This document shows, in pieces, positions 35,380 through 61,622 of a stretch of 64,000 nucleotides of DNA. Numbering within the stretch: the first letter of the stretch is position 1; each line of letters opens with the position of its first letter. The DNA is from Candidatus Woesearchaeota archaeon (GTDB lineage: Archaea > Nanobdellota > Nanobdellia > Woesearchaeales > JACPBO01), in the NCBI GenBank assembly GCA_030651135.1, contig JAUSCS010000010.1, positions 62,001 to 126,000 on the forward strand, given 5' to 3'. The translations under genes and the position numbers were made by a program. Under the pieces are notes generated by a model that made no database searches, was not told where the DNA came from, and worked only from the letters and a program-made list of their open reading frames with translations.

Positions 35380-35970
35380 ATGACAAACAAAAGCCCAACA
35401 GACATGTCAAAAACCACCCATCACAAAGGGTTGGCATGTCGCTATTGTCCGCCGCATCAGGTGGTTTTTGAGCACACCAAAATTCCACATATTGATGTGG
35501 TTTACAGAGTAAACCGCCATTCACAGAATGGTGGAATTTTCAGTGTTTTAAGAGCAGAGCATGATGTAGTTTTAGGCCTGCTGGACAAATTAGAGGAAAA
35601 CTTTGGGAAGAAAGATTTAAAATCTTCTGAAAAGAACATTGCAATATTGGAAAAAGAGTTCAACAAGCACTCTTTAAACAAAGAGGAAAAGGCACTATTC
35701 CCTGAAATCGAGAAATTCATGCCAAGGGAAGGCGGGCCTACTGGGATGATGGTCATTGAGCATGAAGACCTGGTCAAGTCTATAAAAAACTGCAAAGATG
35801 CAGTAAAAGCCGGGGATTTTAATAAATTAGATTACAACGGAAGCCATATTATCAATCTTCTGCGGCAGCACATAGACAAGGAGAACAATATGCTCTTTAT
35901 GATGGCCGACATGCATCTTGATGAAAAGCAGAAAAAGGCAATATCTGAGAAATTCAAGAAGTTTGATTAA
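35380..35970 (+). CDS. Hemerythrin-like protein with a palindromic-element-derived N-terminus
   Basis: 196 residues from ATG 35380, preceded by AGGAGGAAC. The hemerythrin domain spans about 53-190: SVLRAEHDVVLGLLDKLEEN, FNKHSLNKEEKALFPEIEKF, MVIEHEDLVKSI, and RQHIDKENNMLFMMADMHL, giving a full set of His/Glu iron ligands. The first 52 residues carry HHKGLACRYCPPHQ and match no hemerythrin. They are encoded by a dense set of DNA inverted repeats (35405-35545) related to the element at 61426-61622. The sequence stays in frame, so the insertion may be translated as an extension; a downstream start is the alternative. Confidence 0.85.
   Translation: MTNKSPTDMSKTTHHKGLACRYCPPHQVVFEHTKIPHIDVVYRVNRHSQNGGIFSVLRAEHDVVLGLLDKLEENFGKKDLKSSEKNIAILEKEFNKHSLNKEEKALFPEIEKFMPREGGPTGMMVIEHEDLVKSIKNCKDAVKAGDFNKLDYNGSHIINLLRQHIDKENNMLFMMADMHLDEKQKKAISEKFKKFD
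35405..35545 (-). repeat. Structured palindromic element, copy 1 (inside hemerythrin gene)
   Basis: Stems: TCAAAAACCACC (35407-35418) with GGTGGTTTTTGA (35460-35471); AAAATTCCAC (35479-35488) with GTGGAATTTT (35531-35540); nested GTTTAC/GTAAAC (35500-35514) and CCATTC/GAATGG (35517-35531), each with a 3-base loop. The reverse complement aligns with 61561-61622 at 49 of 62 positions without gaps and shares the outer architecture of the rest. Confidence 0.7.
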
Positions 35971-60846: not shown

Positions 60847-61422
60847 ATGGGAACTTACAAATATCTGAGGCAGTTGTGGAAAAAACCAACTGACGAATTA
60901 AAAATAATTCTAAGGCAAAGGCTTAATCAGTTCAGGGATGAGCCAGTTACAATCAGGATTGAGCATCCTACAAGGCTTGACAGGGCAAGATCTCTCGGAT
61001 ATAAAGCAAAGCCGGGATTTATAATTGTAAGGCAGAGTGTTATGCGGCATAAAAGGCAAATGCCAAAGACAAGGCATCCAAGAAGGCCAAAGCATTCTTC
61101 GGTAAGAAAAGATTTGGCAATGTCTTACCAATGGGTTGCAGAGCAGCGAGCAGTCAAGAAATATCCTAATTGCGAAGTTCTTAATTCATACTTTGTAGCG
61201 AAAGACGGCATGCATTATTGGTATGAAGTTATTTTGGTTGACAGGGCTCATCCGCAGATAGCGGCTGATGACAGAATTAAGTGGATCATTAACCAGCGAG
61301 GCAGGGTTTTCCGCGGACTTACAGCATCTGGCAAGAGAAGCAGGGGCTTATTAACCAATAAAGGCAAGGGCGCTGAAAAGATGAGGCCTAGCTTGAGAGC
61401 GCATGACAGAAGGGCGCATTAA
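60847..61422 (+). CDS. rpl15e: 50S ribosomal protein L15e
   Basis: 191 residues. Family signatures MGTYKYLRQLWKKP, RARSLGYKAKPGFIIVRQSV, the basic KRQMPKTRHPRRPKHSSVRKD, and the C-terminal GLTASGKRSRGLLTNKGKG. GGAGGCTTAAATG gives a strong ribosome binding site. Followed four bases later by the palindromic element 61426-61622, which may form the 3' end of its mRNA. Confidence 0.96.
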   Translation: MGTYKYLRQLWKKPTDELKIILRQRLNQFRDEPVTIRIEHPTRLDRARSLGYKAKPGFIIVRQSVMRHKRQMPKTRHPRRPKHSSVRKDLAMSYQWVAEQRAVKKYPNCEVLNSYFVAKDGMHYWYEVILVDRAHPQIAADDRIKWIINQRGRVFRGLTASGKRSRGLLTNKGKGAEKMRPSLRAHDRRAH

Positions 61423-61425
61423 AAA

Positions 61426-61622
61426 TGTCAGAATTTTCCATCCAGTCTTTGACTGGTGGCAGAAAGCCAACCTTTTTTGTATGTGGAAAATTCTGAGCAT
61501 GCTCAAATGTCAAAAATGTTTGCATTTTTGAGCAAATTGGAAATGTGAACATTTCCAATTAACCACATGATGCGGTGGAACGTAGCAACATGCCGCCTAT
61601 TTATGATTAGTGGTTTTTGACA
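61426..61622 (+). repeat. Structured palindromic element, copy 2 (behind rpl15e)
   Basis: 197 bases bounded by TGTCA and TGACA. Perfect stems: TCAGAATTTTCCA (61428-61440) with TGGAAAATTCTGA (61484-61496), enclosing CCAGTC-TTT-GACTGG (61442-61456) and TGGC-AGAAA-GCCA; TGCTCAAA with the 3' part of CATTTTTGAGCA (61500-61534); AATTGGAAATGT with ACATTTCCAATT (61535-61560); AACCAC with GTGGTT (61561-61615) enclosing GCGG/CCGC. The last 62 bases match copy 1 (reverse strand) at 49 positions. Compared with copy 1 it has an extra 66 bases holding two hairpins. Confidence 0.7.

Follow-up and report, generated by a model that had tools for sequence, protein, structure and literature searches.

The locus and the anatomy of the element

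The window analysed here is a stretch of 64,000 nucleotides (positions 62001-126000 of contig C10) from the genome of a Candidatus Woesearchaeota archaeon (G000; 1.415 Mb in 13 contigs). An open reading frame at 60847-61422, which by eye encodes ribosomal protein L15e and whose stop codon TAA falls within an insertion target described below, is directly followed by a structured palindromic element on the forward strand (61425-61622). A second copy lies on the reverse strand at 35405-35546, within the 5' part of a 196-codon open reading frame (35380-35970) that reads through the element in frame as its predicted N-terminus; the remainder of this frame is hemerythrin-like by eye, and its true start codon is uncertain. 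Copies are mostly extragenic or at gene ends, and several others begin no more than about 10 nt from the 3' end of a co-oriented open reading frame.

An initial sequence-only reading had aligned 61561-61622 to the reverse complement of 35405-35466 and had described hairpins within an outer stem. We re-computed the alignment, with the same ungapped result (49 of 62 positions, 79%), and the hairpins and the outer stem can be read from the sequence as described. The ends given there, TGTCA and TGACA, had to be moved slightly, as the boundaries are ATGTC...TGAC(A), placing the element at 61425/61426-61622 with one junction A ambiguous; this span agrees with a match to a covariance model (R1, built from 24 element copies) at 61425-61622, and with an empty orthologous site in a sister genome.

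A typical, short-form copy is about 145 bp long and consists of two modules, each closed by a long stem. Module A reads ATGTCARAAATTTTCC, the left hairpin CCAGTC/TTT/GACTGG, a hairpin GGCNGAAAGCC and GGAAAATTTYTGAGCA, and module B reads TGCTCARAAACC, a variable hairpin, CATGCC, the right hairpin ACCCATC/TNT/GATGGGT and GGTTYTTGACA. The palindromes near the two termini resemble each other and the ends of IS200/IS605 transposons, and most copies have short inverted termini (TGTCA/TGACA) with imperfect longer complementarity. The 35405-35546 copy is of the short form (R1 match of 104 bits).

In the 61426 copy, module A forms the left end (61425-61500, forward strand), where an outer stem (61425-61440 with 61484-61500) encloses the left hairpin CCAGTC-TTT-GACTGG (61442-61456) and a second hairpin, GGC-AGAAA-GCC (61458-61468). 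The tract AATTTT 5' of the left hairpin (61432-61437, class TTTT/AATT) is a proposed guide. This copy is a long form, the short form plus a 53-bp insert: a reverse-oriented mini-element with two hairpins (61508-61560, reverse strand) interrupts the left arm of module B. The mini-element is found in long-form and not in short-form copies, and it sits without target duplication in a parent sequence GGTGGTT^TTTGAGC (here and below, ^ marks a junction). Module B continues on the forward strand with ACATGCC (61588-61594) directly 5' of the right hairpin (61595-61611), which is degenerate in this copy relative to the family consensus ACCCATC-TNT-GATGGGT, and ends in the right tip GGTTTTTGACA (61612-61622). 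The tip is nearly invariant among 76 copies, its boundary is set by empty sites, and we propose that right cleavage would occur after TTGAC(A). Of the stretch from TGATGCGGyGGA to ACATGCC that had been called invariant, TGATGCGGyGGA varies across the family, and the part that is largely kept is CATGCC or CATTCC, just 5' of the right hairpin.

Copy number and distribution

Two copies had been noticed in the window. A BLAST search of 61426-61622 against its own genome returned dozens of dispersed matches, and a search with R1, of the kind that the sequence-only reading had proposed, locates the element at about 38 distinct places in G000; the sister genome (G001), the only other member of its family within the collection, has about 25 copies. 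Since the element is quasi-symmetric, R1 matches both strands. Beyond these two genomes, the element is present in 78 of 193 genomes in an order-wide sample (E<=1e-4), many of them reaching the maximum number of matches counted per genome, and in a phylum-wide sample 78 of 327 genomes match at 1e-6, all 78 belonging to the same class and 70 of them to the same order. Named records with exact matches to the core are Candidatus Woesearchaeota, and no exact core was found in viral contigs. A divergent, longer relative with the same two-module layout and a weak R1 match (26 bits) was seen in another genome (G119, locus L113, about 1590-1730). Copies span about 95-205 bp, too short for a transposase gene.

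Covariation and strand bias

The base pairing of the element is conserved, and its sequence changes in a compensatory manner. In the alignment of 24 copies, 91.7% of the cells pair, against 34-47% in slid controls, and 26 of the 46 pairs are changed on both sides, a result found in none of 500 shuffles. The compensatory difference first seen between the two window copies (CCATTC/GAATGG against CCAGTC/GACTGG) is thus real and family-wide, and the claim that base pairing is selected is borne out. With 76 copies from many genomes, in an alignment that was itself fitted to the covariance model, 93.6% of the cells pair and 37 of 46 pairs are changed on both sides (0 of 500 shuffles), with 361 doubly changed cells against 102 in shuffled data. 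In this larger set, changes on both sides affect 15 of 16 pairs of the outer stem (helix 1), and covariation is seen in 6 of 6 pairs of the left hairpin, 6 of 7 pairs of the right hairpin and the second hairpin. Further copies and statistically supported covariation, two of the observations whose absence the sequence-only reading had named as speaking against its proposal, are both clearly present.

These features could in principle be those of a structured non-coding RNA gene family, spread by duplication and under selection for its RNA fold. Strong covariation would be expected of such a family, and mismatches of the G-T type outnumber those of the A-C type on the modelled strand (176 to 80, in an alignment that leans towards G-U), suggesting that one strand is functional. 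However, helix 1 is an exception without a G-T excess (20:19), and no Rfam family matches anywhere in the window at gathering score. Neither the covariation nor the G-T test separates RNA from single-stranded DNA. Precise insertion with empty sites, a target motif linked to the guide class and end hairpins in common with Y1 transposons, all presented below, speak against an RNA family, and we regard it as very unlikely. The best account of the structure is that single-stranded DNA adopts this fold and that a transposase recognises it.

A permissive Rfam search of three loci with copies (L017, L018 and L026) gave no match over the copies. Between two copies in L026 (2960-3024) there is a sub-threshold match to the tRNA family (23.5 bits, with a gathering score of 29; E 0.62), which may reflect a genuine tRNA gene that is divergent or carries an intron.

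Empty sites and precise insertion

Comparison with G001 shows how the element enters DNA. When the two flanks of the 61426 copy are joined, they match a continuous sequence in G001 (90% identity): G001 reads GGGCACATT^AGAAAAATTT, and G000 reads GGGCGCATT^AAAAATGTC...TTGAC^AGAAAAATTT, with a left A-tract that differs between the two genomes. Four further G000 copies have clean empty sites in G001, at TTTAT^A, TTTAAT^A, TTGTAA^A (TTATAA in G000) and TTAAT^A. In the reciprocal case, a G001-specific copy (L044) is missing from the window at 2640-2641, where the sequence is GGATAAA^A. Empty sites sought in G001 for the 35405 copy and for L013, L020, L023, L027 and L033 could not be resolved. At none of the six empty sites (five for G000 copies and one reciprocal) is there a target duplication, with one A ambiguous per junction, and the five clean ones already contain the left motif. 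The element enters precisely, duplicates no target sequence and lands 3' of a motif rich in A and T (TTNAT, TTNAA or WWAAA). The lineages of G000 and G001 differ in insertions since their split.

The absence of duplications bears directly on whether the element is a miniature inverted-repeat transposable element, moved when a DDE transposase acts at its short inverted termini (TGTCA/TGACA). Such termini are indeed present in most copies, but the lack of target duplication at all six empty sites counts strongly against this mechanism, as does a target motif that is one-sided and depends on the guide, and we consider it extremely improbable. The same absence had raised a bridge-RNA, IS110-like reading, which was set aside on the Y1 evidence given below.

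The target motif depends on a tract beside the left hairpin

The sequence on the 5' side of the left hairpin served to assign 68 copies to classes. TATA copies lie 3' of TTNAT in 11 of 11 cases (two of them at TTGAT), AATT copies (n=8; the 35405 copy, at target CTTAAA, belongs to this class) lie mostly 3' of TTNAA, and TTTT copies (n=49) lie mostly 3' of WWAAA. The clearest separation is at position -1, where the TATA class has 11 T and no A, and the AATT and TTTT classes together (57 copies) have 2 T and 55 A (Fisher 5e-11), the classes having been defined after the flanks of some copies had been seen. At -1, -3 and -4, mutual information between class and flank is higher than in any of 2000 shuffles. 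The signal is weaker at -5 (43 of 2000 shuffles), and there is none at -2 or between -6 and -8, limiting the class dependence to about -1 to -5. The right flank has no comparable motif.

In IS608 and ISDra2, a guide at the base of the left hairpin pairs with the target and so determines its choice (PMC5934647). Since the motif pre-exists in the target and depends on the tract, we suggest that the tract is a guide that recognises it by putative pairing, as in IS200/IS605 elements. Read through the contacts of IS608 and ISDra2, AATA would fit TTNAT^A and AATT would fit TTNAA^A. The element appears to insert as single-stranded DNA beside short motifs selected by base pairing.

A related clade of Y1 transposases

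The sequence-only reading had also called for a search for a helper transposase, which succeeded in part: a Y1 clade with matching end hairpins exists in the same order, and G000 itself has no matching gene. The one Y1_Tnp gene of G000 (L040) was considered as the mobiliser and rejected on its left hairpin, which differs from that of the element. Among the Y1 genes of 20 element-bearing genomes there is, however, a distinct clade of the IS200/IS605 family. It scores 52.3 and 45.3 bits against NCBIfam NF033573 (cutoff 55), and Y1 transposase chains, 2xm3 among them, are its best PDB matches.

The ends of these transposons resemble those of the element. Left ends match module A and carry the same left hairpin (for example TTTTTCCATCCACTCTGTGAGTGGTGG in L119), and right ends repeat module B, with ACATGCC conserved at several of them. 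The right end of L128 reads TTGAACACC-GTAATGCC-ATCCAGTC/TTT/GACTGGT-GGATA-GGTGTTCAA, and that of L127, which is module B-like, reads TTCATACC-ACCAGTC...GACTGGT-GGTTCTTGA. A strict right-end pattern, written after several clade ends had been seen, occurs at 9 of the 15 gene ends of the clade, whereas only 10 of 179 ends in the control set show it (p=4e-7). When a model trained on element right ends only (R2) was run on 60 Y1 loci, its four best matches were all at clade right ends. In L119, the right end of a broken transposon of this clade is directly followed by a short element copy (768-818) that contains seven consecutive N. The clade, or a close relative of it, is probably the helper of the element.

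The clade also allows us to weigh a further possibility, in which the element is a REP/REPIN-like repeat kept by a RAYT, a REP-associated Y1 gene that is domesticated and present once per genome. The palindromic nature of the repeats, their paired hairpins, their mostly extragenic or gene-end positions and a common Y1 chemistry would agree with this, and REP/REPIN (PMC3116915, PMC3733652) are likewise hairpin repeats that depend on a Y1 protein, from which our element differs in being longer, in showing no GTAG/CGTC tag at the foot and in its IS200-like linked transposase. Scores against the REP-associated transposase family NF047646 are either not reported or at most 19.9 bits (cutoff 80), and the clade is present as several copies or broken genes and is absent from element-rich genomes. 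We therefore give a RAYT-kept repeat very little credence.

Mechanism and comparison with known systems

We conclude with high confidence that the element is a non-autonomous, PATE-like transposable element of the IS200/IS605 type (Y1 HUH, single-stranded DNA), because of its copies, covarying end hairpins, duplication-free insertion and guide-linked motif, and the matching ends of the Y1 clade. Several observations weigh against this transposon reading. No transposase of the clade is present in G000 or G001, the left hairpin of L040 is different, and among 31 loci no autonomous transposon or Y1 gene has exactly the TGTCA/TGACA termini of the element. The element has short inverted termini and closing stems, which are described as lacking in IS200/IS605 elements and PATEs, and a right-end guide fits part of the copies only (CATGCC copies fit and CATTCC copies do not), so we do not claim a rule for that end.

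By analogy with IS200/IS605 transposition, a TnpA dimer supplied in trans would bind the left and right hairpins on one strand. Its catalytic tyrosine would cut at two points, at the 3' end of the left target motif and behind TTGAC(A), the element would be excised as a single-stranded circle, and reinsertion would follow 3' of a motif that pairs with the guide flanking the left hairpin. The long module-closing stems may, we speculate, hold the ends folded.

The sequence-only reading knew no named family of this kind. Anatomy, target rule and relatives nevertheless place the element among transposase-less IS200/IS605-derived elements, of which the palindrome-associated transposable elements (PATEs) of Haloquadratum walsbyi are an example; these insert without duplication, bear palindromes, akin to IS605-type transposons, near each end together with a short targeting motif 5', are often invaded in their palindromes by SMR-A repeats, and are described without inverted termini (PMC3119063). 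Our element is similarly too short for a transposase, with near-terminal palindromes, duplication-free insertion, a 5' motif and nested small mobile repeats, but differs in host lineage, in sequence, in its length of about 145 bp, and in having short inverted termini, a closing stem at each end and extra hairpins in each module. Because inverted termini are present, we file it as PATE-like rather than as a strict PATE. The nested 53-bp mini-elements resemble SMR-A of Haloquadratum by description (PMC3119063), being short, palindromic, duplication-free and located within palindromes of PATE-like elements, but SMR-A is about 110 bp long. A second 53-bp two-hairpin mini-element interrupts the left hairpin of another copy without duplication (L025, about 1950-2010; CCRCCAGTT^TTTAACTGGTGG), possibly representing an SMR-like class nested in element copies, and in the genome G061 an IS200-type Y1 gene is interrupted by a mini-element of about 52 bp (L124, 1660-1712).

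IS608 and ISDra2, which have end hairpins and insert without duplication 3' of TTAC and TTGAT (PMC5934647), share with our element a hairpin near each end and duplication-free insertion 3' of a short motif, and probably the guide. In contrast, they encode TnpA (and TnpB) and have no described closing stems, and the target set here is TTNAT/TTNAA/WWAAA. In the part of the literature that was searched, no paper describes elements of this kind from DPANN archaea. The family is new as a family, with a variant architecture of IS200/IS605-type elements. A bolder proposal, which we regard as rather unlikely, is that it represents a new IS200/IS605-type architecture, common to the elements of this DPANN order and several Y1 transposon right ends, in which cleavage sites and guides are locked in long self-complementary stems and the fold would be a switch that restricts transposition to times when the DNA is single-stranded, or the elements would serve the host at gene ends.

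If our interpretation is true, small-genome archaea harbour an abundant, order-wide family of mobile elements. With guide class and target motif changing in concert across dozens of independent insertions, the family would provide natural evidence for the coevolution of guide and target in IS200/IS605 elements, and its copies would be precise lineage markers and ready substrates for tests of single-strand transposition.
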